This document shows, one piece after another, positions 10,841 to 37,737 of a DNA stretch of 46,788 nt. The DNA is from a virus. The stretch is taken from IMG/VR virus record IMGVR_UViG_3300045970_001344, positions 1 through 46,788 of that record; one strand, given 5' to 3'. A model generated the notes under the pieces. It was not told the origin of the DNA. It searched no databases and saw only the letters and a list, made by a program, of their open reading frames with translations. Made by a program: the position numbers and the translations under genes. How positions within the stretch are numbered: the first letter of the stretch is position 1; every line of letters starts with the position of its first letter.

Positions 10841-10923
10841 ATCTCAACCGCTTCGCGACCTGACGGTTATCCTTTCACGATTCCCCCGTCAAACTGCACG
10901 CTCGCAAGAGCATTTGTTGAGAT
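10841..10923 (+). ncRNA. Structured stable-RNA candidate inside the tRNA array
   Basis: Outer 8-bp stem ATCTCAAC/GTTGAGAT encloses three hairpins: CGC-ttc-GCG, TGACGG...CCGTCA and GCTC-GCAA-GAGC. It sits in a tRNA slot with the usual ACAAT spacers but has no T loop and ends CTA, not CCA. The CTCGCAAGAG tip recurs in the RNA at 14106-14225. T4 also has stable non-tRNA RNAs in its tRNA cluster. Confidence 0.55.
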
Positions 10924-11259: not shown

Positions 11260-11302
11260 CTCCCCAACCTAAATTGATATGCGATAGTGTGTAGTGGTTA
11301 CA

Positions 11303-11308
11303 TAAATA
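11303..11308 (+). promoter_or_regulatory. Late promoter (ATAAATAG)
   Basis: ACATAAATAG 14 bp before the ATG at 11323; GGAGG lies between. Confidence 0.6.
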
Positions 11309-11322
11309 GTATGGAGGCACAA

Positions 11323-12009
11323 ATGCACTACTTCATCTATCAAACCACAAACACCGTGAACGGCAAAATTTACGTGGGTGTCCATCAAACAGAAGATTTG
11401 GGTGATGGATATCTCGGCTCCGGAAAATACCTCTGGCGTGCCATAAGAAAGCACGGTAAAGATGCATTCACCCGAATCATACTCGAGAGTTTTCCAAATC
11501 GTGCTGACGCCGAAATTAGAGAAGCGCAAATAGTCAACGCCAATTTCATTGCGCGCGATGACACATACAACATGGCTATTGGCGGCTCGGGCGGATCAAT
11601 CGATATCAATCGAAAGCCTTTTACTAGAAAACACACGACCGAATCAAAACAGAAAATGTCGAGGTCTCTGACTGGTAAGAAGCGTTCAGACGATGTTAAA
11701 CAGCATCTAGCAGAAACAAATTGGGCGCATCATCGACCCAACGAACAGCGAGAACACGCTAAACGTGCCGGTCATCTTTCCCAAGTGTCACGTGCTGAAA
11801 CTCCCGAGAAGCAACAAGAAATCTCACGTAAGACGGGTGATAGCCTGAAGAAGTATTTCGCTGAAAATGGATCTGCCGTAACTGGTATTACTAGACTTCG
11901 TGTTGTTTGCCCCCACTGTAATAAGACGGGGGCAAACAACACGATGACAAGGTGGCATTTTGACAAATGCCGCAACAAAATCGATGGTGCCGTGAGTGTG
12001 AAGGTTTAG
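11323..12009 (+). CDS. GIY-YIG homing endonuclease
   Basis: 228 aa. The start at 11323 has GGAGG 7 bp upstream and gives MHYFIYQT; an in-frame start at 11287 would precede the promoter. GIY-YIG fold: FIYQT then KIYVGVHQ, RAIRKHGKDAF, and the E of AEIREAQIV. A NUMOD3-like stretch follows, then a C-terminal zinc knuckle (CPHCNKTG...RWHFDKC) also seen in the 15164 product. Such enzymes cut intron- or gene-less alleles to spread themselves. The last 24 bp overlap the tRNA-His gene. Confidence 0.9.
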   Translation: MHYFIYQTTNTVNGKIYVGVHQTEDLGDGYLGSGKYLWRAIRKHGKDAFTRIILESFPNRADAEIREAQIVNANFIARDDTYNMAIGGSGGSIDINRKPFTRKHTTESKQKMSRSLTGKKRSDDVKQHLAETNWAHHRPNEQREHAKRAGHLSQVSRAETPEKQQEISRKTGDSLKKYFAENGSAVTGITRLRVVCPHCNKTGANNTMTRWHFDKCRNKIDGAVSVKV

Positions 12010-14105: not shown

Positions 14106-14225
14106 TGCAAGCCGTTGAAAATCGGTTATCGGTTAATGCTGCCTCTGTGTAAGGGGCTTCGCTAGAGCGGGATTCAAAGCCCGACACCCTCGCAAGAGGT
14201 TTTACCGACTTCGCTTTTGCTTGCA
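14106..14225 (+). ncRNA. Second structured RNA in the tRNA array
   Basis: Long-range stem TGCAAGC (14106-14112) / GCTTGCA (14219-14225), then TCGGT/ACCGA, and hairpins GCCTC-TGTGTAA-GGGGC, CGGG-attcaaag-CCCG and CCTC-GCAA-GAGG. Shares the CTCGCAAGAG tip followed by TTT with the RNA at 10841. No ORF and not a regular tRNA. Confidence 0.5.
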
Positions 14226-14320: not shown

Positions 14321-14450
14321 GCCGATGTAGCTCAGTGGTAGAGCGCCTAAAAACATCGTCCGCACCCTTTGTTGGATTCCAACCGCACGCAGATGGTTAT
14401 CCACTCTTAATGGGGAGGTCAGCAGGTTCGATTCCTGTTCGTCGGCGCCA
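14321..14450 (+). tRNA. tRNA-Lys (CTT) with a 53-nt insertion
   Basis: 130 nt. Acceptor GCCGATG/CGTCGGC, D arm GCTC-AGTGGTA-GAGC, anticodon loop CTCTTAA, T loop TTCGATT, G73 and CCA are all regular. Bases 14348-14400 interrupt the 5' side of the anticodon stem. Removing them restores CCCCA-CTCTTAA-TGGGG and a 77-nt tRNA. The insert itself folds (CATC/GATG, then GTTGG-att-CCAAC). Confidence 0.8.
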
Positions 14451-19394: not shown

Positions 19395-20459
19395 ATGTCA
19401 AATATCGTCATAGTTGGAGCTGGTCGCATAGGCATCGCCTGCGGCAAGATCATCCATTTCACATCTACGCATAGCATCACGTTTGTCGACAACAGCGATG
19501 ATGTGCTGGCATCCGTGGCGCCGCAGATGCCATTGGGCTGCCCGGCCTCTACGCGTGGGGTCTACACGCCTGACCAGATGGAGGACACCCTCCGCCAGCT
19601 GAAGCCAGACGTCATCATCTGTGCCACGCCCTTCACGATGAATGTGCAGGTTGCTCAGATCGCCCAGCGGATCGGCAGTCACTACATCGACTTCACTGAA
19701 GATGTGAGTGTCACCAAGGCCATTGAGGCGCTTGGGATCAGTCGCCTAACCTTCGTGCCCCAGACAGGTTTGGCCCCGGGCCTGATTAGCTACCTCGGGC
19801 TGTCACTGTTTCAGCAGTTAGGTGAGCCCTCCGAGTTGATTTTGCGTGTTGGGGCGCTCCCACAGGTGGCTTTTGGGCCTGCTTACTACGCTATCACATG
19901 GTCGCCAGAAGGCCTCATCAACGAGTATCTGAAGCCGGCGTGGCGGAAGGTAGGCGGCATCATTCAAGAAGTGCCATCGCTGTCAGATGAGGAGAACCTC
20001 CTTGTCGATGGCCGCATGTATGAGGGCTTCACGACGAGTGGTGGTGTCGGCAACCTGGCCGCCTACGACCACATTCCATCGGTGGAATACAAGACGCTGC
20101 GTCATCCTGGCCATCTCGAGTACATCCAGAAGCTGTTGGCCTCCTCAGGTGACAGCCTCGAGAAGGGTGTTGAGAATGCTAAGGCAGCCTTCTACACTAC
20201 GCGTGATGACGTGGTTGTGCTCTGCGCCATCGCTCGAGACGCCGACCGCCGCAGTGCTACACGCGGGATCCACTTCTACCCACACCACAATCTAGGTATA
20301 AGCGCCATCGAGCTGACAACTGCTGGCACCGGCATTGCTGTGCTTGAGCTCATCCTACGTGGCGAGCTTGCGGCTGGCGTGCTTCGTCCCGATGACATCT
20401 CATACGAGCTGCTCAGAACTACGAAGGCCTACGAGCTGATCTTTAGCTGCGCGCGATAA
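19395..20459 (+). CDS. Saccharopine dehydrogenase-like oxidoreductase
   Basis: 354 aa. N-terminal Rossmann NAD(P)-binding motif VGAGRIG (residues 6-12), an acidic end of beta-2 (VDNSDD), CATPF, and the family-typical PQTGLAPGL segment near residue 125. Members act in lysine/saccharopine or related amino-acid (and some polyamine) metabolism; the substrate cannot be read from the sequence. Full length for a bacterial LYS9-type enzyme. An unusual metabolic gene for a phage, under a late promoter; its stop overlaps the next one. Confidence 0.75.
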   Translation: MSNIVIVGAGRIGIACGKIIHFTSTHSITFVDNSDDVLASVAPQMPLGCPASTRGVYTPDQMEDTLRQLKPDVIICATPFTMNVQVAQIAQRIGSHYIDFTEDVSVTKAIEALGISRLTFVPQTGLAPGLISYLGLSLFQQLGEPSELILRVGALPQVAFGPAYYAITWSPEGLINEYLKPAWRKVGGIIQEVPSLSDEENLLVDGRMYEGFTTSGGVGNLAAYDHIPSVEYKTLRHPGHLEYIQKLLASSGDSLEKGVENAKAAFYTTRDDVVVLCAIARDADRRSATRGIHFYPHHNLGISAIELTTAGTGIAVLELILRGELAAGVLRPDDISYELLRTTKAYELIFSCAR

Positions 20460-21953: not shown

Positions 21954-22667
21954 ATGAAGACTTCAGAACTGTTCGAACTACGTACAAACGCGCCCCGACA
22001 GAAGACGGAAAACGTCAAGCGCTACGTTGATGCAAGTGATCCAAAGGGTCGCGCTGAGACCGAGTGGACTTCTGGCCAGGGACATATCCCAAACGGCAAG
22101 CACTACAAGTGGGCGAAAGAGAAGGTCTTCGACAAGGACGGCAAGCCCGTCATGTACAAGCCGTACAGCAACGCACACTACCGCCCAGGTGGTGACCATG
22201 GCCCAGCCGCCGTCATGGGCACCGTTGGTGAGTGGCTTTCCAAGATGGGCGCTACCCGTGAGCACCTTGCACCCGCCCTCGAGAAGGTCCGTTCCTCTCC
22301 AGAATACCACCATGCGATGGCCCTCGGCTTCGAGGACAAGACGAGCGTCGGTGATGCCAAGAACGGCACCCTCAATCTGGTCGGCAGCTACGACAATGGC
22401 TTGATGGGCGAGAAGCCAGTCATGGTTCGTCGAAAGATCCTCGCCAATGGCAACATCCGCACGCAGGCTGACGACCATGACCGACACGGTGGACGTGGCA
22501 CGGCCGCCCATCCAGTGACGATTGACACGCACCCGCACATGGATCCGGTTGACCGCATTGTCCACTCAATGCGTGCCTCCATCGAGCGTGTCACTAAGAT
22601 CTACCAGACACAGTCGAAGCATCACTTCGTACGTGCCCTCCAAAAGCACAAGGACAAGACAAAATGA
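21954..22667 (+). CDS. Putative internal virion protein, capsid-targeting-like N-terminus
   Basis: 237 aa. N-terminus MKTSELFELRTN matches the targeting-like motif with LFE as a possible cut. The rest is hydrophilic, basic and His-rich (HYRPGGDHGP, DDHDRHGGRG, HPVTIDTHPHM), which would suit a DNA-associated head protein or a metal-dependent activity. Own late promoter; ATGA overlap with the next gene. Function unknown. Confidence 0.65.
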   Translation: MKTSELFELRTNAPRQKTENVKRYVDASDPKGRAETEWTSGQGHIPNGKHYKWAKEKVFDKDGKPVMYKPYSNAHYRPGGDHGPAAVMGTVGEWLSKMGATREHLAPALEKVRSSPEYHHAMALGFEDKTSVGDAKNGTLNLVGSYDNGLMGEKPVMVRRKILANGNIRTQADDHDRHGGRGTAAHPVTIDTHPHMDPVDRIVHSMRASIERVTKIYQTQSKHHFVRALQKHKDKTK

Positions 22668-23158
22668 CCCTTAACAAACGGATTAACCACGCAGTAGAGA
22701 GCGTGGGTGCCATCTGCGCAGCAGTGTCATCACTTGCTGCTGCGTGGATCTTGTTCTATGCGCCACTTTGGTGGCTCCTACCACTGATCGGCATCTCATT
22801 CATGGCGTACTATGTGGTCCTACTGGCAGTCGGCTTCATCATCGGCGCGCGCTACAGCCACGAGAAGTGGATCGCCGAGACCACAGGCGATGCGCTGGAG
22901 AAGACGCCCGACGATGCTCAGCTCATTGGCACAGTCATCAATCGTGGCGAGGTAATCGGTCGCTACATGGACCACGACATCCATGAGTGGATCGAGATCA
23001 AGACCACCAAGGGTGTCAAGCGCTTCAACTTCCTCGGAGGTGCGCCCTTCGACCGTGCGGGCAACATGCTGCTTCCTCGCGAGGATGGCTTTGCCTGCCT
23101 CGACACCTGTCTCTACGAGATCGTCAAGGAAGCCGGTCAACCTGAAATCACTTCATGA
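22664..23158 (+). CDS. Membrane protein with cytoplasmic or periplasmic domain
   Basis: 164 aa. Two hydrophobic helices at about 15-35 and 38-62, then a soluble beta-rich domain (residues 75-160). Not a recognised family. Overlaps the preceding gene. Followed by the structured-RNA locus. Confidence 0.65.
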   Translation: MTLNKRINHAVESVGAICAAVSSLAAAWILFYAPLWWLLPLIGISFMAYYVVLLAVGFIIGARYSHEKWIAETTGDALEKTPDDAQLIGTVINRGEVIGRYMDHDIHEWIEIKTTKGVKRFNFLGGAPFDRAGNMLLPREDGFACLDTCLYEIVKEAGQPEITS

Positions 23159-23164
23159 AAAGTG

Positions 23165-23192
23165 TGTACAGTTTGTGCCGGTGGTATAAAAT
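23165..23192 (+). promoter_or_regulatory. Early-type promoter of the structured RNA
   Basis: TGTACA (23165-23170), 16 bp, TAAAAT (23187-23192). Same spacing as the other early promoters. Predicted start near 23199, at the first hairpin. Confidence 0.6.
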
Positions 23193-23194
23193 AG

Positions 23195-23690
23195 CTACAT
23201 GCACTGGAAACAGTGCGTAACGATTGGATGGAACCGATCGGCGATGGTTATCTACTCATGGAGCTACTAGCGGCGAAAGCCAATGGAAGCAAATCGCCAC
23301 CCGTAAGGGTGAAAACAGAATGCAAGACCTGGTGATGTCTTCAATCTCCGTCCCACTCTTTGTTCCCCCTTTCTCTTCAATCGTCCCTATTCATCAACTT
23401 CAACCCGTAGACCGTTGGTATTGGTTATCAACGTCTAAGCACTGTCTCACGTAAGCCCTGTGTTCCATCGCAAGTTGGAAAGCAAGCCGGACAAGCAGAG
23501 CTGGTATCTGTGACGTACTACAGATGTAGGTACTCGTGCCGAATAACGAGTGTAGGTTAGTCTTGTCCGAATACAAGGACGTTTCTGGGGTCGAAATCCA
23601 GACGGCTACCCATCGCCGCAAGATGGGTGTAGGAAGCGGGTCATTGCGACTTAGCGACCGAAGAACCCGATCCCGCCCTTTGTCTACGAG
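23195..23690 (+). ncRNA. Large structured non-coding RNA (about 490 nt)
   Basis: No credible ORF. In order: GCACTG-GAAA-CAGTGC (23201-23216); CGATTGG...CCGATCG (23221-23240); GCGAT...ATCGC (23241-23297) enclosing GGC-GAAA-GCC; ACCC-GTAA-GGGT (23299-23310); AAGAC...GTCTT; a pyrimidine-rich single strand (23342-23395); TTCCA...TGGAA; CGGACAAG...CTTGTCCG (23488-23569) enclosing ATCTGT...ACAGAT and ACTCGT...ACGAGT; a T-arm-like TCTGG-ggtcgaaat-CCAGA (23584-23602); ACCCATC...GATGGGT; a last GCGGG...CCCGC stem before CCTTTGTCT. Several GNRA loops. The next genes encode a mobile GIY-YIG enzyme and a TROVE protein, so a Y-RNA or ornate large RNA is likely. Confidence 0.7.
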
Positions 23691-23715
23691 TTGATTTTGA
23701 TCATTTGGAAAGTAA

Positions 23716-23721
23716 TAAATA
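23716..23721 (+). promoter_or_regulatory. Late promoter (ATAAATAC)
   Basis: AATAAATACA 30 bp before the ATG at 23752. Confidence 0.5.
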
Positions 23722-23751
23722 CATTGTCAGATCCAATAATTAGGACAGTGT

Positions 23752-24495
23752 ATGAAGACAGCGAAAATTTATGTTTTGACAGACCCTCGAGAATCGAGCG
23801 TGATCAAATGTTATGTTGGCAAAAGCATTGAGCCTAAACGTAGATTTAAGAATCACCTGATAGCAAAGGGAGACACCAAACGCGATAGATGGATTAAAAG
23901 TCTACAGCGGCAGAACCTCCTGCCGCTATTGCTAATTCTTGAAGAATGTGCATCTGAGCATCGCAAAGATTGGGAACAGCCGGAACGAAACTGGATTTCT
24001 AAGTACAGGGCTGATGCAAGATATGATGTACTAAATCATACTGGTGGCGGAGAAGGTATTTCAGATATTGATGACGAAACTCGTGGGCGGATGTCTGAAG
24101 CTGCCAAGAAGAGATACATCAATCACAGGGCAATATACGATGCTTCATATGCCAGTGAAGAGCGCAACAGCAAGATATCTGCAAGCCTGACTGGTAAGAA
24201 GCATGAATGGAATAAAGACTTACCGCAAAATCAACCAGGATGGAAACATACCAAAGAAGCAAAGATCGCAATATCATTAGCCGCGACCGCCAACAACTTA
24301 GCAAGGGCTGCGGCTGGAAGATATAAGAAAACTGCTAAACCCAAAATAAAATCATCACGTGATCTAACTGCACCACGTGATGATCTGTGGAAACAACATC
24401 AATCTGAAGCTGCCACTCTTAGGTGGCAACGTTATCGCCAAAGGAAAGAAAATGAGCAGCGTGTACATCAATCATGCGAAGTCGATCTCGGCTAA
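23752..24495 (+). CDS. GIY-YIG homing endonuclease
   Basis: 247 aa. GIY-YIG core: KIYVLTDP then KCYVGKSIEPKRRFKNH, WI.SL, LEEC.SEH and the catalytic E of WEQPERNWI. A NUMOD3-like DNA-binding region follows (GKKHEWNKDLPQNQPGWKHT). AT-rich compared with the TROVE gene. It lies between the structured RNA and the TROVE gene and its last 44 bp overlap the TROVE start, so it appears to have inserted at this locus. Confidence 0.85.
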   Translation: MKTAKIYVLTDPRESSVIKCYVGKSIEPKRRFKNHLIAKGDTKRDRWIKSLQRQNLLPLLLILEECASEHRKDWEQPERNWISKYRADARYDVLNHTGGGEGISDIDDETRGRMSEAAKKRYINHRAIYDASYASEERNSKISASLTGKKHEWNKDLPQNQPGWKHTKEAKIAISLAATANNLARAAAGRYKKTAKPKIKSSRDLTAPRDDLWKQHQSEAATLRWQRYRQRKENEQRVHQSCEVDLG

Positions 24496-26056
24496 GAGCA
24501 GCCTGACACCACAGTCCTTGCCTATCCCCGGGCGTGAACAAGAGATGAAGCAAAACAATGCCGGTGGGTTTACATTTACCCTTGATCAATGGGGCATTTT
24601 GGATAGGTTTCTTTCCATAGGTTCCGAGTCGGCTGGCTACTACGTCGGCCAGAAGGAGACAACTGCCAAGTCGTTCGCGACCGTGAAGGCCTGCATCGCA
24701 GCCGACGGTGTTCGCGTGGTGAACCGCGCCCTCGAGTACTCACTTGCCGGGCGTGCACCGAAGAATGACCCGGCTGTGGTGGTCATCGCTCTCGCAGCGG
24801 TGTACGGTGACGACGTCACCAAGCAAGCGGCCTACGATGCGCTGCCGCGTATCGCCCGTACCGGTACCTGGCTGTTCATGTTCGTGTCGATCCTCGACAG
24901 CCTGGGCAAGTGGAACGCTGCTGCCAAGCGTGGTGTCGCCAAGTGGTACACGTCGAAGGACATGGACAAGCTGGCCCTCCAGCTGCTCAAGTACCAGTCC
25001 CGCAATGGTTGGTCGCACCGTGACGTGCTCCGTCTCGCTCACGTGAAGCCGTCGTCGGACGTGCAGGGCAACCTGTTCCGCTACGCCGTCGGTAAGGAGC
25101 TCGAGCTTGGCGCCGCCGTGCCGCAGCTCCTGGTGGACTTCGAGTACCTGAAGAAGGCCGAGGACGCCAAGACCGTGCTGCGTCTCGTCGAGGGCAACGA
25201 CGCCCTGACCTGGGAGATGGTGCCTTCGCAGTTCCTGAAGGACAAGGATGTGCTCGCTGCTCTGGTGAAGAACATGGGTCTGACGGCAACTATCCGCAAG
25301 CTGGGTGCCCTGACGGCCCATGGCGTGATCGCTCCGCTGTCGGCTGGTTCGAAGGACGTCATCGCGAAGCTGAGCGATGTGGAGGCCCTGCGCAAGCAGC
25401 GCGTTCACCCGATCACGCTGCTGCAGGCCTTCAAGCAGTACCAGGCTGGCCACGGCGAGAAGGGTTCCCTGACCTGGAACGCTGACCAGCGCGTGCTCGA
25501 TGCCATCAACGACGCCTTCTACGCCTCGTTCGCGACGCAGGAGAAGACGAGCGACAGTTACCTGATGGGTGTGGACTGCTCCGGCTCCATGTTCGGCGCG
25601 CACGTCAACGGTTCTCCGAACCTGACGGCTGCTGAAGTCGCTGGCGTCATGGCCCTCGCGGTCGTGAAGAACCAGCCGAACTACTGGATCGGTGGTTTCA
25701 ACACCAAGATGGGCGAACTGAAGATCACGCCAAGCATGCGTCTCGACGCGGTGCTGCAGGTGATGCAGCGCTTCTCGTGGGGTGGCACCGACTGCGCCCT
25801 GCCGATGCTGCACGCAGCACAGCACGGGATGGAGGTGGACAAGTTCGTCACCATCACCGACTCGGAAACTTGGGCAGGTAGCATCCAACCTACACAAGCA
25901 CTGCGTGACTACCGGCAGAAGTTTGGTCGGGCAGCGCGCAATGTTGTCATCGGTACATCCATGACTGAGTTCACGATCGCTGATCCTCTGGACCCTTATC
26001 AGCTTGATGTTGCTGGCTTTGACAGCGCAGCACCGCAGCTCATCGCCCAGCTGTGA
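24452..26056 (+). CDS. rsr: Ro60/TROVE RNA-binding protein
   Basis: 534 aa from the ATG at 24452 with AAGGAAAG upstream. The N-terminal two thirds is a TROVE HEAT-repeat ring (FTLDQWGILDRFL, YYVGQKETTAKS, RTGTWLFMF, NGWSHRDVLRLAH), which binds single-stranded RNA ends in its hole and Y RNA outside. The C-terminus is a von Willebrand A domain with a MIDAS: DCSGS (about 374), GGTD (about 443), TDSE. Bacterial homologues (Rsr) take part in RNA decay and rRNA maturation with Y RNAs. The neighbouring 490-nt RNA is the obvious candidate partner. Confidence 0.92.
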   Translation: MSSVYINHAKSISAKSSLTPQSLPIPGREQEMKQNNAGGFTFTLDQWGILDRFLSIGSESAGYYVGQKETTAKSFATVKACIAADGVRVVNRALEYSLAGRAPKNDPAVVVIALAAVYGDDVTKQAAYDALPRIARTGTWLFMFVSILDSLGKWNAAAKRGVAKWYTSKDMDKLALQLLKYQSRNGWSHRDVLRLAHVKPSSDVQGNLFRYAVGKELELGAAVPQLLVDFEYLKKAEDAKTVLRLVEGNDALTWEMVPSQFLKDKDVLAALVKNMGLTATIRKLGALTAHGVIAPLSAGSKDVIAKLSDVEALRKQRVHPITLLQAFKQYQAGHGEKGSLTWNADQRVLDAINDAFYASFATQEKTSDSYLMGVDCSGSMFGAHVNGSPNLTAAEVAGVMALAVVKNQPNYWIGGFNTKMGELKITPSMRLDAVLQVMQRFSWGGTDCALPMLHAAQHGMEVDKFVTITDSETWAGSIQPTQALRDYRQKFGRAARNVVIGTSMTEFTIADPLDPYQLDVAGFDSAAPQLIAQL

Positions 26057-30769: not shown

Positions 30770-32725
30770 ATGTCTCTCTCATCCCTGGCCTCTTCCTTCT
30801 CGACAAAATTCGCAAAGCCCCGCGTCATGTCGCTCCTCGAGTATCTCGAGGCCTGCAAATCAAACCCAATGATGTATGCCAATGCTGCCGAGCGGATGGT
30901 AGCAGCCATCGGTAAACCTGAGGTGGTCGATACGAGTGGCGATGCTCGCCTGTCACGCATCCACTCCAACAAGAAGATCCGCGTCTACTCGGCCTTCAAT
31001 GACTTCTTCGGTGCTGAAGAAGCCGTCGAGCGGATTGCCGCCTACTTCCGCAACAGTGCGGCAGGCCTCGAAGAAAGCAAGCAGATCCTGTACCTCAAGG
31101 GCCCAGTCGGCGGCGGCAAGTCCTCACTGGCCGAGCGCGTCAAGGCGCTGATGCAGAAGCTGCCCATCTACGTGCTGTATGACCCGAGCGAGAAGGACCC
31201 TGAGCGCCAGATGTCGCCGGTCCTGGACAGCCCTCTCGGCCTGTTCAACGTGCTCGAGCATGCCGCCACTCTCGAAGCCGATTTTGGCGTCCCGCGCCGC
31301 TATCTGAACACCGTGATGTCAGGCTGGGCACAGGAGAAGCTGAAGGAATTCGAGGGTGATGTCACCAAGTTCAGCGTTATCGAGGTGTACCCGAACAAGG
31401 ACACCCAACTGGGCATCATGAAGGTTGAGCCGGGCGACGAGAACAACCAGGACGTCTCCGTTCTGATCGGCAAGGTCGATCTGCGCAAGCTCGAGAAGTA
31501 CTCGCAGAACCACCCGTACGCCTACAGCTACAGCGGCGGCCTGAACCGCACCAACCAGGGCCTAATGGACTTCGCTGAGATGTTCAAGGCAAACATCAAG
31601 ACCCTGAACCCGCTGCTGATGGCCACGCAGGAACACAACTACCAAGGCACTGAAGCCATCCCCGCGATGCCTTACACCGGCGTCATCCTTGCCCACAGCA
31701 ACGAGGCCGAGTGGTTCAACTTCCGCAACAACAAGACCAACGAGGCCTTCCTCGACCGCGTGTTCATCGTCGACGTGCCGTACTGCCTGCGCACCGATGA
31801 AGAAGTCCGCATCTACGAGAAGATGCTGGCAGGCTCCAGCCTGGCCAAGGCGCCTTGCGCTCCTGGAACGCTGAAGATGCTGGCTCAGTGGTCGATCCTG
31901 ACCCGCCTGAAGGCACACGAGAACTCGACGCCTTGGGCCAAGCTTCGCGTCTACAACGGCGACAACGTGAAGGACACCATCCCGAACGCCAAGCCGCACG
32001 ACGAGTACAAGGACGCCGCCGGCAACGACGAGGGCATGGCCGGCATGTCGACCCGCTTCGCCTTCAAGGTGCTGTCGGCCACGTTCGACCTTCGCCCTGA
32101 AGAGCAGCAAGCCAACCCGATCGATCTGATGTACGTGATCGAAGGCGCAGTCCGCAAGGAAAACCTGCCGCCTGAGACCACCGAGAAGTACCTCGACTAC
32201 ATCAAGTCCAACCTGCAGCCGCGCTACTTCGAGTTTCTTGAGAAGGAACTGCGCACGGCCTACCTCGAGAGCTACCGCTCGTTCGGCCAGAACATGTTCG
32301 AGCGTTACGTCCTCTTCGCTGAAGCCTGGCTGGCGGACGAGCAGTGCCGTGACCCTGAGACCCACGTCCTCCTGGATCGTGACAACCTCAACAAGAAGCT
32401 GGAGGAGATCGAGAAGGCCGCCGGCATCGCCAATGCCAAGGACTTCCGCAATGAGATCGTCCACTACGTGCTGCGCTACAAGGCCAAGCACGAAGGCGTC
32501 TCGCCGGCCTGGGACCAGTACGAGAAGATCAAGACCGTGATCGAGAAGCGCATGTTCTCGGCCACCGAGCAGATCATGCCGGTTATCGCCTTCGGTCCGA
32601 AGCAGGACAAGGACACGCAAGAGAAGCACGACGGCTTTGTCGAGCGCATGGTGGAGAAGGGCTACACCGAGCAGCAGGTCAAGATCCTGGTGTCTTGGTT
32701 TACCAACAACCGCAAGTCGAGCTGA
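30770..32725 (+). CDS. prkA: PrkA/YeaG-type AAA+ serine protein kinase
   Basis: 651 aa, nearly the length of E. coli YeaG (644). N-terminal AAA+ module: Walker A GPVGGGKS (about 110-117), the family-typical MSPVLDSPLGLF, and GGLNRTNQGLMDFAEMFK. C-terminal PrkA region: LNPLLMATQEHNY, FLDRVFIVDVPYCLR, STRFAFKVLSATFD. PrkA homologues act in starvation and sporulation responses together with YeaH and SpoVR (YcgB). All three are present here in the same order. High G+C and clean codon use suggest a long-resident gene. Confidence 0.95.
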   Translation: MSLSSLASSFSTKFAKPRVMSLLEYLEACKSNPMMYANAAERMVAAIGKPEVVDTSGDARLSRIHSNKKIRVYSAFNDFFGAEEAVERIAAYFRNSAAGLEESKQILYLKGPVGGGKSSLAERVKALMQKLPIYVLYDPSEKDPERQMSPVLDSPLGLFNVLEHAATLEADFGVPRRYLNTVMSGWAQEKLKEFEGDVTKFSVIEVYPNKDTQLGIMKVEPGDENNQDVSVLIGKVDLRKLEKYSQNHPYAYSYSGGLNRTNQGLMDFAEMFKANIKTLNPLLMATQEHNYQGTEAIPAMPYTGVILAHSNEAEWFNFRNNKTNEAFLDRVFIVDVPYCLRTDEEVRIYEKMLAGSSLAKAPCAPGTLKMLAQWSILTRLKAHENSTPWAKLRVYNGDNVKDTIPNAKPHDEYKDAAGNDEGMAGMSTRFAFKVLSATFDLRPEEQQANPIDLMYVIEGAVRKENLPPETTEKYLDYIKSNLQPRYFEFLEKELRTAYLESYRSFGQNMFERYVLFAEAWLADEQCRDPETHVLLDRDNLNKKLEEIEKAAGIANAKDFRNEIVHYVLRYKAKHEGVSPAWDQYEKIKTVIEKRMFSATEQIMPVIAFGPKQDKDTQEKHDGFVERMVEKGYTEQQVKILVSWFTNNRKSS

Positions 32726-32727
32726 TC

Positions 32728-32892
32728 ATGATGGCGGCCTTTCTGGCCATCCTGGCCTTCGCGCTGGTCCTCGTTGCTGTAGTGGTGCAGGTTAGCCACT
32801 CCAGCGGTGGGGCTAAGTATGTGACGACGGGGATCTGCATCATCTCAGCACTGGCATTCCTGCTCTACTCGGCCAAGGTCTACACGCCGTGA
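32728..32892 (+). CDS. Small membrane protein, two helices
   Basis: 54 aa from the ATG at 32728, 2 bp after prkA. Hydrophobic helices MAAFLAILAFALVLVAVVV and ITTGICIISALAF-like, short polar turn (HSSGGAKY). Its stop overlaps the GTG of the next gene. Possibly a membrane partner of the PrkA complex; inference. Confidence 0.6.
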   Translation: MMAAFLAILAFALVLVAVVVQVSHSSGGAKYVTTGICIISALAFLLYSAKVYTP

Positions 32893-33443
32893 AGCTTAGA
32901 GATCTCATGCTTTGTAATAGCCACAATGATGGGACAAGATCTCTCTTTGAGAGCATTCTTGTTCCTGAAGTTGAGGCAGCTTTCAAAGATTGGAATAAAT
33001 CTGCCACTGATGCAAAGTGTGTGTTGATAGGAGGCATTGCGCTGTCATTCTATGTCAAACCCCGGATGACTACCGATGCGGATCAGCTCTTCATGTCAGC
33101 GGCAGACATTCCTGCTACAGTGGATGGTTTCAAGCGAACAAGACCGGGTGCATTTATGCACAAGCATACCCATGTAGAGATTGAGGTACTCACGCCATCA
33201 GCCATCAACATGTCCGTCGAGCTCGCCCACGCTATTTTTGATCGCGCGCAGATACATGATGGAATTCGCGTGGCAGAACCGAGTGGTATTGTAGCTGCCA
33301 AACTCGGCCGCTTCAAGCTGCGCGATCAAGCAGATATAGAAGAACTATTGGCGCATTTCAAGATTGATCTTGATCCATATCCACTATCTGCGGCTGAGCT
33401 TGCACGTTACGATCAGCTTCGCACACAACTGAGCAATACATGA
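32889..33443 (+). CDS. Nucleotidyltransferase-like protein between prkA and yeaH
   Basis: 184 aa from a GTG. A GGIALSFYVKPRMTTDAD segment (about 48-65) fits the pol-beta-type GG...T.D.D motif of MNT/AbiEii-like nucleotidyltransferases; the third acidic residue may be in VEIEVL. N-terminus MKLRDLML resembles the capsid-targeting-like peptides, and the first 20 bp nearly match those of the gene at 34807. More AT-rich than its neighbours, so probably a later insertion. Could modify tRNA or protein (AMPylation); not certain. Confidence 0.65.
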   Translation: MKLRDLMLCNSHNDGTRSLFESILVPEVEAAFKDWNKSATDAKCVLIGGIALSFYVKPRMTTDADQLFMSAADIPATVDGFKRTRPGAFMHKHTHVEIEVLTPSAINMSVELAHAIFDRAQIHDGIRVAEPSGIVAAKLGRFKLRDQADIEELLAHFKIDLDPYPLSAAELARYDQLRTQLSNT

Positions 33444-34810
33444 CTGCCAAGCCACCAATCTCCTCGACCTTCATCTTCGTCGATCGACGCAAGACCGGTC
33501 GAGGCAAGTCGCTCAACAACCGTCAGAAGTTGTTGGAGCGCATCAAGGAAAGCATTCGCACTGCCAAGCCCAAGGATATCGATGCGGGTGGTGGCTTGGG
33601 TGCTCAGTCAGCTTCTTCAAAGAACCTGATCAACCCCGTCAAGATCGCGCGCAGCGCACTGCACGAGCCGACCTTTCACTACGACAGCCGTACTGGTGAG
33701 CGTGAGGTCATCCTCATCGGCAACGACCACTGGGAGCGGGGCGACAAGTTTCCAACAAGCAGTGGTGGCAAGGACGGCGAAGGTCGTGGCAAGGGTGAGG
33801 GCAACGGCCCAGGTGAAGATGGTGAAGACGACTTCATCATCAACATCTCACGCACTGAGTTCTTCGACGTCTTCTTTGAGGACTGTGAACTGCCTGACAT
33901 GAAGGAGACCTCCGAGAAGGAGCTTCCTGAGGCAATCTGGAAGCCAGCCGGTTTCCAGAAGGAAGGCAACGCTGCGCAGCTGTCGGTGATCCGCTCATAT
34001 CGCAACTCCATTGGCCGCCGACGCGCGCTCACCGCCGATGCGCGTGCTGAGCTGGAGGAGATGGAGAAGATACGCGATGAGGCGCAGAAGCGACTTGACC
34101 ACAATCCTCTGGATGCTTCTGCCAATGCTCGCTGGAAAGTGGCAATTGCCCGTATCGAGGAGCTGAAAAAGCAGATCGCTGCTACGCCGTTCTTCGAGAA
34201 GCTGGATCTTCGCTACCGCAAATCGGAGCGGGTTCAGGTGAAGTCAGCCGATGCCGTGTTGGTCATGGTGATGGACATCTCTGGCTCGATGGACGAGGAC
34301 AAGAAGCGCGCAGCCCGCAAGTTCTTCTCGCTACAGTATGCCTTCATCAAGCGCAAGTATCCCAACACAGATCTGGTCTTCATCGCGCACACCGACACCG
34401 CCGAGGAGATGAGTGAGGAAGACTTCTTCACCACTCAGAAGTCTGGCGGCACCATCGTCTCACCATCGCTTGAGCTGGCCAATAGTATCATCAGCACACG
34501 CTATGATCCTGACCAGACCAACATCTATCTCTCCTACGCTGGCGACGGCGACAACTGGGAAAGTGACAATGCCAAGGTGATGGAAGAGCTCGAGGGCAAG
34601 GGCCTTCTATCGAAGCTGCGGCACGCCGTGTATGTTCAGGTCGGACAGAGCTACACATCAGGTCTCTACGGCAGCGGAAACAGTCTCTGGAATGTCATGC
34701 AGTCGGTGGCGAAGACCAATCCGAAGATGCATGTTATCAAGGTCGTCGATGACAGCGAGGTATTTTCCTCCTTCAAGACAATCTACGGCAACAAGAAGGT
34801 CAAGAAGTGA
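33440..34810 (+). CDS. yeaH: YeaH/DUF444 von Willebrand A protein
   Basis: 456 aa, slightly longer than E. coli YeaH (427). SSTFIFVDRRKTGRGKSLNNRQ at the N-terminus is typical (IDRR...G+...NR..+). A Gly/Asp/Glu-rich region at about 105-140 precedes a C-terminal VWA domain with MIDAS DISGSMDE (about 278), a T in the loop, and DGDNW. Acts with PrkA in E. coli stress adaptation by an unresolved mechanism. ATGA overlap upstream, GTGA downstream. Confidence 0.93.
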   Translation: MTAKPPISSTFIFVDRRKTGRGKSLNNRQKLLERIKESIRTAKPKDIDAGGGLGAQSASSKNLINPVKIARSALHEPTFHYDSRTGEREVILIGNDHWERGDKFPTSSGGKDGEGRGKGEGNGPGEDGEDDFIINISRTEFFDVFFEDCELPDMKETSEKELPEAIWKPAGFQKEGNAAQLSVIRSYRNSIGRRRALTADARAELEEMEKIRDEAQKRLDHNPLDASANARWKVAIARIEELKKQIAATPFFEKLDLRYRKSERVQVKSADAVLVMVMDISGSMDEDKKRAARKFFSLQYAFIKRKYPNTDLVFIAHTDTAEEMSEEDFFTTQKSGGTIVSPSLELANSIISTRYDPDQTNIYLSYAGDGDNWESDNAKVMEELEGKGLLSKLRHAVYVQVGQSYTSGLYGSGNSLWNVMQSVAKTNPKMHVIKVVDDSEVFSSFKTIYGNKKVKK

Positions 34811-35406
34811 AGCTTAAAGATCTTCATGAGATGGCAGTGCTCTATAGCCCTGGATTTCATGTGACTTCTGAGCAATGGAAAGAACACTGCGCTGAACAAG
34901 CACAGGCCGTTCTTCTCAAAAAGCTGCATGACAATATAGAACTTCGCATGCAAGATGGGAAACATCGCGCGGTGTCGTATTGGGTAGATGGCGTTATGGT
35001 ATCTCTTGCTATTATCCATGATAGGGTGATCGACGGCAAGGAATATCAGGATCTTCTGTTTATTGCATCTGATCCGGATAAAAGGCAAAAAGGTTACGCT
35101 ACCGCGCTACTCTGGGAAATCTTCTGGGCTTTTGATAAACCGTTGTTGATAGGTGGAGCAATATCACCAGAGGGTCAGAAGTTGGTGTTCTCATTCATGA
35201 AGGCACTTGCATCCAGAGAAACAGATGAGCCGAAAATGATTGATGTTTACACCGGTGAGGTGCGTTCATTTGACCAGAAGAAGTATCTTAGAAGGCCTGA
35301 ACTTTCACTTGTTCTAGAATGTTTTGCTTTAGAGGCCTGTAAAATGCCAACAGCAAAACATCCATACTGGCTGCATCAACCGAATTTATTTGAAGGTCAA
35401 CCATGA
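34807..35406 (+). CDS. GNAT-like acetyltransferase between yeaH and spoVR
   Basis: 199 aa from a GTG. ASDPDKRQKGYATALLWEI (about 87-105) fits GNAT motif A, (R/Q)xxGx(G/A), which holds acetyl-CoA; the preceding strand (YQDLLFI) fits too. N-terminus MKLKDLHEM is targeting-like. AT-rich compared with its neighbours, like the gene at 32889, with which it shares the start sequence gtgaagctta.agatct. Substrate unknown; it might modify the system's proteins or a host target. Confidence 0.65.
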   Translation: MKLKDLHEMAVLYSPGFHVTSEQWKEHCAEQAQAVLLKKLHDNIELRMQDGKHRAVSYWVDGVMVSLAIIHDRVIDGKEYQDLLFIASDPDKRQKGYATALLWEIFWAFDKPLLIGGAISPEGQKLVFSFMKALASRETDEPKMIDVYTGEVRSFDQKKYLRRPELSLVLECFALEACKMPTAKHPYWLHQPNLFEGQP

Positions 35407-36884
35407 GCGAACCATTCTACATTACATCACGCACTGATTGGACGCCTGAGCTCATCGAGCAAGCCTACCGCGAGTGCGAGATCATTGCACGCGAGGAGCT
35501 TGAGCTCGACGTCTACCCGAACCAGATCGAGATCATTGGTGCTGAGCAGATGTTGGATGCCTACGCATCCATTGGTCTGCCTGTGCACTACAACCACTGG
35601 TCATTCGGCAAGGAGTTCCTGAAGAACCACAAGGCCTACGAGACAGGTCGTCAGGGTCTGGCCTACGAGATCGTCATCAACAGCGATCCCTGTATCTCCT
35701 ACCTCATGGAGGAGAATGACATGGTGATGCAGACGATGGTGATCGCCCATGCTGCCTTCGGCCACAACACTGTCTTCAAGAACAACATCTGCTTCCAGCA
35801 GTGGACGAACGCTGGCTCGATCATCGACTACATGATCTTCGCCCGTGACTACATCCGCCAGTGCGAGCAGCGCTATGGTGTGGAAGAGGTTGAGCAGGTA
35901 CTCGATGCCGCACACTCACTGGCGGCGCACGGTGTGGACAAGTTCAAGCGGCGTCACCGTCCGAAGATGACCGAGGAAGCACGCCTGAAGAAGCTGATCG
36001 AGGAAGACAATCAGCGGCAGCGTGAGCTCGACGTCATTATGAAGAAGACGAGCACGAACACCGCTGAGGCCGTGACCGAGCACGACGATCACGACGACAT
36101 GGAAGATGAAGAGAACCTGCTCTACTTCATCATGAAGAAGTCGCCGAACCTGGAGCGCTGGAAGCGCGAGATCCTGCGCATCGTCTACAAGACGAACCAG
36201 TACTTCTACCCGCAGGGTCAGACGAAGAACCTCAACGAGGGCATGGCCACCTTCTGTCACTACTACATCATGACCCGACTGGAAGAGAAGGGCATGCTGT
36301 CATCTGATGCCTTCCTCAACTTCCTGGACCACCACGCCGGTGTCATCTTTCAGCCGACCTACCAGAAGCGCTACTACAGCGGCATCAACCCCTACGCACT
36401 CGGCTTTGCCATCTGCCAGGACATCAAGCGCATCTGCACAAACCCGACAGCTGAGGACAAGGAATGGTTTCCCAACCTCATTGGCAAGCGGTGGCAGGAT
36501 GCCGTGAAGGAAGCTGTGTTTGAACACCGCGATGACAGCTTCGTCGCGCAGTACCTGTCACCGAAGGTCATTCGTGATCTGAAGATCTTCAGCGTCGGTC
36601 TGAAGTATGACGGCGACGAGCAGGAGCAGAGTGTGGATGCTGTTGTCACTGAGATCCACGATGAGCTTGGCTACGCAAACATCCGCACCGCCTTGGCACG
36701 ATCGATGGAGCGCATCAACTACGTGCCACAGATCAAGGTGATCGGCGCTGATCTTGAAGGTGACCGCACCCTGAAGCTAAAGTACGAGCCGTACAAGGAT
36801 CGTGGTCTTGAGCTGTCAGATGCCGAGATCGTCACCGACTACATCGACTACTTGTGGGGATACGCTGTCGAGATTGATAGTTGA
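35403..36884 (+). CDS. spoVR: SpoVR/YcgB family protein
   Basis: 493 aa, close to YcgB (510). Family features in order: LDVYPNQIEIIGAEQMLDAY, HWSFGKEF, YEIVINSDPCISYLMEEN, VIAHAAFGHN with a conserved His, ILRIVYKTNQYFYPQGQTK, NEGMATFCHY, GINPYALGF. An acidic linker lies at about 215-240. SpoVR is needed for spore cortex formation in Bacillus; in Gram-negatives it is co-regulated with YeaG/YeaH. Completes the three-gene system. Confidence 0.95.
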   Translation: MSEPFYITSRTDWTPELIEQAYRECEIIAREELELDVYPNQIEIIGAEQMLDAYASIGLPVHYNHWSFGKEFLKNHKAYETGRQGLAYEIVINSDPCISYLMEENDMVMQTMVIAHAAFGHNTVFKNNICFQQWTNAGSIIDYMIFARDYIRQCEQRYGVEEVEQVLDAAHSLAAHGVDKFKRRHRPKMTEEARLKKLIEEDNQRQRELDVIMKKTSTNTAEAVTEHDDHDDMEDEENLLYFIMKKSPNLERWKREILRIVYKTNQYFYPQGQTKNLNEGMATFCHYYIMTRLEEKGMLSSDAFLNFLDHHAGVIFQPTYQKRYYSGINPYALGFAICQDIKRICTNPTAEDKEWFPNLIGKRWQDAVKEAVFEHRDDSFVAQYLSPKVIRDLKIFSVGLKYDGDEQEQSVDAVVTEIHDELGYANIRTALARSMERINYVPQIKVIGADLEGDRTLKLKYEPYKDRGLELSDAEIVTDYIDYLWGYAVEIDS

Positions 36885-37208: not shown

Positions 37209-37737
37209 ACTTCCAGACCTGGGTGTCGTCATTGAACACTTGAATGACTGATGCGCTGTAGTCAAGAGGTTCAAGTGCACCGAGCTCTGCAAAGTACTTG
37301 TAGACGCCTGGGCTTGTTGTGGCTACAGGAAAGAACACCAGCGTCTTGTCATTGATGGTAACGCCATCGATGGTCATTGATCCACCGACACCCCCGACTG
37401 GAATGGTTGTAGACGTTGAGATCATCTTGACAGCCACCAGTGGGCTGTATTCAGACTTTACCTTCCACAGATACGAGGTGCTATCAAGCTCATAGAGAGC
37501 TGATGGCTTGGGAGCATAGAAGGCGTCGTTGATGGGATCGTATGTATAGCCGATGCCGGCGTAGTTCTTTCTTAACGCTATGCCGCCATCGGGGTTACCA
37601 TTTTGATCATAGTGAATGCTGCCCCGCGTGTTATAGGAGGTCTGGACCCAGGTACCAGGCAGGGTGGCGATGAACTCAGCCTCTGCCACGATGACGCGGG
37701 TGACGATACCATTTTCAACTTCAGCGTAGTGTGCCAT
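37171..37737 (-). CDS. Tail-fibre-associated structural protein
   Basis: 188 aa. The start MAHYAEVENGIVTRVIVAE, then WVQTSYNTRG and ALRKNYAGIGYTYD, form a pattern known from structural proteins of T4-like marine phages, where it occurs alone or as a domain of fibre or neck proteins. Start and upstream stop overlap (TAATG), so it is co-translated with the Gly-rich adhesin and expressed with it from the minus-strand late promoter. Confidence 0.75.
   Translation of the reverse strand: MAHYAEVENGIVTRVIVAEAEFIATLPGTWVQTSYNTRGSIHYDQNGNPDGGIALRKNYAGIGYTYDPINDAFYAPKPSALYELDSTSYLWKVKSEYSPLVAVKMISTSTTIPVGGVGGSMTIDGVTINDKTLVFFPVATTSPGVYKYFAELGALEPLDYSASVIQVFNDDTQVWKFTAGAWVSKPVV

Follow-up and report, generated by a model that had tools for sequence, protein, structure and literature searches.

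A predicted giant Y RNA with two tandem Ro60-docking stems beside a phage Ro60 gene

The DNA analysed here (the window) is a viral record of 46,788 nt, IMGVR_UViG_3300045970_001344, which carries 22 tRNA genes. The RNA stretch examined, positions 23195–23690, occupies a non-coding gap between an ORF at 22664–23158 and another at 23752–24495. The first-pass annotation of this DNA had noted no ORF here; the stretch contains no start-to-stop ORF of at least 80 aa, and its longest stop-to-stop runs are 77 codons on the plus strand and 97 codons on the minus strand. The ORF at 23752–24495 (plus strand) encodes a GIY-YIG/NUMOD3 homing-type endonuclease, a mobile insertion that separates the RNA from a gene for a 534-aa Ro60 protein (24452–26056, plus strand), recognised by domain and structure matches to TROVE and the Ro60 vWA domain. 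TROVE is therefore the next non-mobile gene, as had been stated. Among solved structures, its best relatives are Rsr of Deinococcus radiodurans (E 1e-120) and the vertebrate Ro60, and it gives full-length matches to Rsr of D. radiodurans and to the Xenopus protein. Two residues with a role in Y RNA binding, K170 and H187 of Xenopus, have counterparts that are invariant in all eight phage Ro60 sequences compared (numbering counted by hand). Elsewhere in the window, a second GIY-YIG/NUMOD3 endonuclease gene lies inside the tRNA array (11287–12009), a saccharopine dehydrogenase-like gene is found at 19395–20459, and consecutive PrkA kinase, DUF444 (YeaH-like) and SpoVR genes (30770–36884) place a bacterial starvation/sporulation set on this phage record.

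Upstream of the stretch, a promoter-like pair on the plus strand, TGTACA and TAAAAT separated by 16 nt (23165–23192), overlaps TATAAAAT (23185–23192) and was identified by consensus match alone. The RNA had been credited with its own promoter, for which this pair, matching 9/12 consensus positions, is a candidate, but the region would be expected to hold 2.5 matches of this quality. Pairs scoring at least 9/12 were likewise found upstream of the first of the two stems described below in 12 of 18 sequences, in a best-of search that inflates scores. A plus-strand terminator scan of the window returned nothing, so the RNA may not be a free RNA. The 5′ end features a hairpin evident from both sequence and fold, GCACTG-GAAA-CAGTGC (23201–23216, plus strand), whose GAAA loop bears out the GNRA loops described earlier. 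When the 496-nt stretch was folded alone, it gave a z-score of −1.55, with 7 of 100 shuffles equally stable; this is modest evidence, barely above the shuffles, and relatives therefore had to be compared. Of the “at least eleven stems” previously drawn, structure beyond chance is indicated by compensatory change in those relatives, but the stems of the single fold are not individually trustworthy.

At gathering thresholds, Rfam yielded no match in the whole window except tRNA, and at E ≤ 5 none in 23100–23800, including with the Y RNA, sbRNA and YrlA models. A match to a known intron or rRNA-like family, which would have told against a partner RNA of Ro60, was thus not obtained from Rfam. Those of the relatives' RNAs that were scanned matched no Rfam model either, and blastn of the stretch against phages and plasmids gave no match.

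To collect relatives, IMG/VR was searched with the Ro60 protein, which returned 9 loci, and with a profile, which contributed the best 80 of 172 viral relatives; merging identical upstream regions gave 72 loci, and L008, L026 and L040 were left out because their upstream regions are missing. All seven relatives first examined have an RNA-like stretch of 400–670 nt upstream of Ro60; in six of them it is on the same strand and the gap to TROVE is 58–71 nt (397 nt in L007). No GIY-YIG gene lies between RNA and Ro60 in these six short-gap relatives, so the endonuclease gene of the window reads, from its sequence context, as a mobile element inserted late in this lineage. This also bears on the notion that the RNA is a self-splicing intron, or a remnant of one, travelling with a homing endonuclease. 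The GIY-YIG/NUMOD3 gene does begin about 57 nt past the last helix of the RNA, but no group I/II intron or other intron-family model matches, no split host gene is seen and relatives retain the RNA without the endonuclease, so that this explanation is largely refuted and scarcely credible. A MAFFT alignment of the first eight sequences misplaced L006 and L007. A profile built from six RNA sequences recovered further loci, with E-values down to 2e-13, and was significant only for closer relatives; the stems were therefore read directly.

This reading revealed two modules with a common plan. On the 5′ side, a lower helix ending in C is followed by C-G, then by an upper helix whose last bases are GG, and by the sequence UUAUC; on the 3′ side, CC- and the upper helix lead into a pyrimidine run ending in UUU and a G that opens the lower helix. 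Module A (23230–23366, plus strand), defined by motif reading, pairing tests and covariation, has the lower helix GGAAC (23230–23234)/GTTCC (23362–23366) with CG after the C, the upper helix GATGG (23243–23247)/CCGTC (23348–23352) and UUAUC at 23248–23252, and is continued outward by a CGATTG/CAATCG helix. Module B (about 23400–23694, plus strand), for which a consensus fold was also available, pairs TCAACCCGTAGAC (23400–23412) with GTCTACGAGTTGA (23682–23694) in its lower helix and GGTATTGG (23417–23424) with CCGATCCC (23667–23674) in its upper helix, with UUAUC at 23425–23429. Two elements of the earlier description change accordingly. The supposed pyrimidine-rich single strand, CACUCUUUGUUCC, is not simply unpaired but largely a 3′ strand of these stems, with CUUUGUUCC forming that of Y stem A. 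Similarly, the final CCTTTGTCT, before which a stem had been described, consists largely of 3′ strand sequence of the Y stems, and because CCUUUGUCU... is the 3′ strand of stem B, the RNA reaches to about 23694.

The 5′ motif of module B (CCG...UUA[TCA]C), scanned without pairing information, occurs in 26 of the 28 relatives with a TROVE identity of 46% or more and an upstream sequence of 400 nt or longer, drawn from the best 80 of 172; the exceptions are L033, where CAG was read by eye, and L075, which has none. Module A is also present in 21 of these 26, while the other five contain B only. The C-C-G, the UUA and the G that closes the lower helix of module B are invariant in 27/27 sequences. 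Own-versus-cross pairing was then assessed with re-optimised pairings, using anchors hand-picked from the motif list and loci from the same best 80 of 172. The own pairings of module B (n = 27) score 377, compared with 328.8 (sd 4.6) for permuted ones, and those of module A (n = 22) score 287, compared with 252.2 (sd 4.9); in neither case did any of 10,000 permutations reach the own score. The module A of the window itself is undistinguished in this test (own score 12, reached by 20 of 21 cross pairings), since its lower stem recurs in close relatives and a different site was chosen by the script.

For module B, a column-true alignment has 86.8% of 432 cells paired, compared with 64.4% after shuffling, and changes of both partners in 111 cells, compared with 38.5. 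Its covariation is 0.626, compared with 0.195 shuffled and 0.14–0.22 when slid, and 7 of 8 lower-helix pairs have changed on both sides. A sequence-only expression fixed the position of the 3′ strand, except in L029, where this was done by eye, and in L023, L030, L032, L035 and L038, where a choice among candidates was made. Unguided RNAalifold on seven sequences recovered both the lower and upper helices of B, with both-side changes in 19 of 41 pairs. Module A gave a covariation of 0.717 (0.201 shuffled), with both-side changes in 9 of 10 pairs, but its 3′ strands were positioned visually while the pairing was in view, which favours pairing, and the re-optimised permutation test is therefore the fairer one for this module. 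Absence of covariation would also have spoken against a structured RNA, and covariation is present in both stems. As judged from these comparisons, the giant RNA is real, conserved upstream of TROVE in related phages and under base-pairing selection.

The upper helix of module B encloses a structured apical domain (23430–23666, plus strand), supported by the consensus fold and by hairpin counts. In the window it contains the conserved CAAGTTGGAAAGCAAGCC (23471–23488), three GAA-loop hairpins (23533–23550, 23562–23577 and 23584–23602) and a hairpin containing GGTGTAGG (23607–23633). The loop measures 183–302 nt among the sequences compared. Across 27 sequences, this loop holds 187 hairpins, twice the 93.5 seen in shuffles, and 52 GAA-loop hairpins, nearly five times the 11.2 in shuffles, where the shuffles are first-order resamplings instead of exact doublet shuffles. 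Loops such as UCGAAU and UAGAAA resemble T-loops; for the hairpin that had been called T-arm-like, the finding is this enrichment of GAA-loop hairpins. A CCTGAC/GTCAGG helix within the B loop was seen by eye in seven aligned sequences with both-side changes, but it went uncounted, as MAFFT offset some sequences, and was not retained. Rfam and ARAGORN detected no tRNA-like domain in the giant RNA.

The association of these stems with Ro60 was also approached from the RNA side. A DNA pattern scan returned 6 stretches, including one match without TROVE (L094) that is apparently coding sequence. A scan of IMG/VR for the 3′ motif gave 99 stretches, 95 of which have no Y motif within 600 nt. The remaining four have an upstream Y motif, form 7–8 of the 8 pairs and are each next to Ro60; as three of the contigs were known already and the fourth shares its stem with one of them, they add little independent weight for specificity. 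These results are relevant to the possibility that the RNA is an RNA-only ornate assembly in the manner of GOLLD and ROOL that merely adjoins TROVE. Those RNAs are likewise large, ornate and phage-borne, and are often near tRNA islands (passages of PMC12286853), and the present record has 22 tRNA genes and a structured apical domain. The kinship suggested by the first-pass annotation was nevertheless not supported: the GOLLD and ROOL models match neither the RNA, at E ≤ 5, nor the window, at gathering thresholds, where only tRNA was matched; no tRNA is immediately adjacent; and the RNA carries Ro60-type stems that covary and track TROVE, with four of four Y-motif pattern matches beside TROVE, only one of them a new contig. 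Such an assembly is very improbable.

The Ro60 site of Y RNAs is described as a 7-bp helix with a bulged C and a three-nt bulge opposite, and sbRNAs are given as Y homologues (both in passages of PMC4726728). On that broad definition, the giant RNA has the lower helix, the extra C and the bulged opposite strand, and it is encoded near a Ro60 gene. Like vertebrate Y RNAs and nematode sbRNAs, it combines a lower helix, an extra C, a U-rich opposite strand, an upper helix and UUAUC at the start of the loop with a Ro60 partner, but those RNAs have one stem in ~100 nt, whereas it has two stems in ~500 nt plus a large folded loop. With the bacterial YrlA/Y RNAs, partners of Rsr, it shares a position by the Ro60 gene and an end-to-end stem with an effector loop (passages of PMC8394870). 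YrlA RNAs are usually 90–150 nt and have a tRNA-like effector domain (D, T and acceptor arms), whereas the giant RNA, at about 500 nt, has two stems and three to five times the length, and no such domain was detected in it. The Rfam Y, sbRNA and YrlA models do not recognise it at E ≤ 5, which is a library test and not a defining trait. Both stems thus have the Y layout, as read from sequence, and adjoin a full-length Ro60 gene. The idea that the phage Ro60 has a Y RNA-like partner well beyond the size of known Y RNAs finds support in the anatomy, the covariation and the linkage. A wholly new class is not supported: both key modules are built on the plan of Y RNAs.

Further Y-type RNAs were sought by scanning the window for copies of the motif closed by a helix. 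Two lie on the plus strand of the tRNA array: a small one at 10843–10921 (lower helix CTCAAC/GTTGAG, upper helix CTGACGG/CCGTCA, UUAUC 10867–10871) and one at 14107–14224 (lower helix GCAAGC/GCTTGC, upper helix ending ATCGG/CCGAC, UUAUC 14126–14130) with a T-arm-like hairpin at 14167–14183. Reading of the following match in the scan identified a third at 14321–14446 (plus strand), where a tRNA-like body with acceptor, D and T arms, below cut-offs, has its anticodon arm replaced by a permuted Y stem (CTTTG-TTGG-ATT-CCAA-CCG ... GGTTATC). The records of two of eight relatives contain 80–81% identical matches to it, and at four loci from these records (L283, L285, L286 and L289) the bases of the permuted stem have changed yet still pair. 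With these three smaller RNAs, one phage carries a whole set. A scan match at 37583, in a coding region and with a 5-bp helix, and four matches that no helix closes (at 32565 or on the minus strand) were taken as chance.

A reduced version of the permuted stem recurs at the Ro60 start codon. This TTG-stem-CCG hairpin, corresponding to the permuted Y lower stem without the upper part, lies in the last 110 nt before the TROVE start in 33 of 69 loci (L002–L090, from the best 80 of 172), compared with 3.74 expected from first-order shuffles. Its distribution is uneven: it occurs in 24 of 29 loci with at least 46% identity (~1.2 expected, summed over per-locus shuffles of the same kind) and in 9 of 40 distant loci, while control windows gave 169/2625. 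In the window, this place is set apart by the endonuclease insertion. The main rival to a Y RNA, with which it is nonetheless compatible, is that the RNA acts as a structured 5′ leader through which Ro60, by binding, controls its own mRNA, and never as a free partner. The hairpin just before the start codon in closer loci fits such a leader, as do the shared strand and short distance to TROVE in six of seven relatives and the missing plus-strand terminator. On the other hand, 400–670 nt with mostly two full Y stems is much for a leader, an ORF separates the RNA from TROVE in L007 and L016, as a mobile gene does in the window, and the Y-type RNAs far from TROVE in the window mean that not every site is a TROVE leader. 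We therefore regard a leader without a free partner as unlikely.

Our preferred reading, which we hold to be probable, is that the stretch encodes a giant Y RNA, a single transcript of ~500 nt that carries two predicted Ro60-docking stems one after the other; the loop of A is the smaller, and that of B is large and folded. Binding of Ro60 by this RNA is inferred from its stems, and two docking stems on a phage RNA beside Ro60 suggest a Ro60 machine larger than known ones. The RNA would be transcribed together with TROVE or just ahead of it, and each stem could dock a single Ro60 ring at its outer face, which would allow one RNA to hold two rings. In Deinococcus, a Y RNA tethers Ro60 to PNPase (passages of PMC4726728 and PMC8394870), which is the most useful pointer to function; by analogy with this bacterial Y loop, the folded B loop may be the effector part, serving as a nuclease tether or a platform for RNA substrates. 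During infection, the particle would most likely steer the handling or decay of structured RNAs, in a phage that also has tRNAs and three more Y-type RNAs, while the leader hairpin at the Ro60 start codon may be a site of autoregulation. The complete picture, with one RNA and two Ro60 rings around a folded core, and a permuted mini Y stem at the start codon through which free Ro60 would halt its own synthesis until Y RNA suffices, is offered more tentatively, as a possible arrangement that we consider less likely than not.

So far, Y RNAs have been regarded as small partners of Ro60 with a single site, and the conserved 400–670 nt form, mostly two-stemmed, shows that the loop can become a large folded domain. 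The giant RNA offers a natural system for the function of the effector part and for Ro60 acting as a ring pair, and the role of phage Ro60 becomes testable through the giant and small Y-type RNAs together. Y RNAs near Ro60 were reportedly described in over 250 bacterial and phage species by Chen in 2014, with tRNA-like domains. A few jumbo phages have been noted with TROVE (passages of PMC7824862); mycobacteriophage Y RNAs are cited in print, and three abundant RNAs near a putative Rsr in a Listeria phage were suggested to be Y RNAs (both in passages of PMC12282133). Small Y RNAs near phage Ro60 are already in print; a giant Y RNA of ~500 nt, one with two Ro60 stems, or a two-ring Ro60 particle was not found in the literature searched.

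The Y motifs seen in the five cultured phages examined occur as small, individual modules, some of which include parts of tRNAs, and the giant A + B form is found in none of these phages. Colt, Myrna and Trina have arrays of small Y motifs upstream of Ro60, while Blueeyedbeauty has no Y motif by Ro60 and GMA2 none of the GGTTATC form. At 3 of 19 more distant phage Ro60 loci scanned, small RNAs that share this layout score above the Rfam cut-off for a nematode sbRNA family; two of them are just upstream of Ro60, and that of L073 is beyond the start of the TROVE gene. One of these alignments displays the correspondence in layout (consensus GGUCCGGaG...GGGUUAUC...CACCAACUUGACC). In Rhodococcus phage Trina, a 209-nt pseudo “tRNA-OTHER” is annotated just upstream of Ro60 (L280, 1646–1854) and is probably a tRNA/Y chimera.
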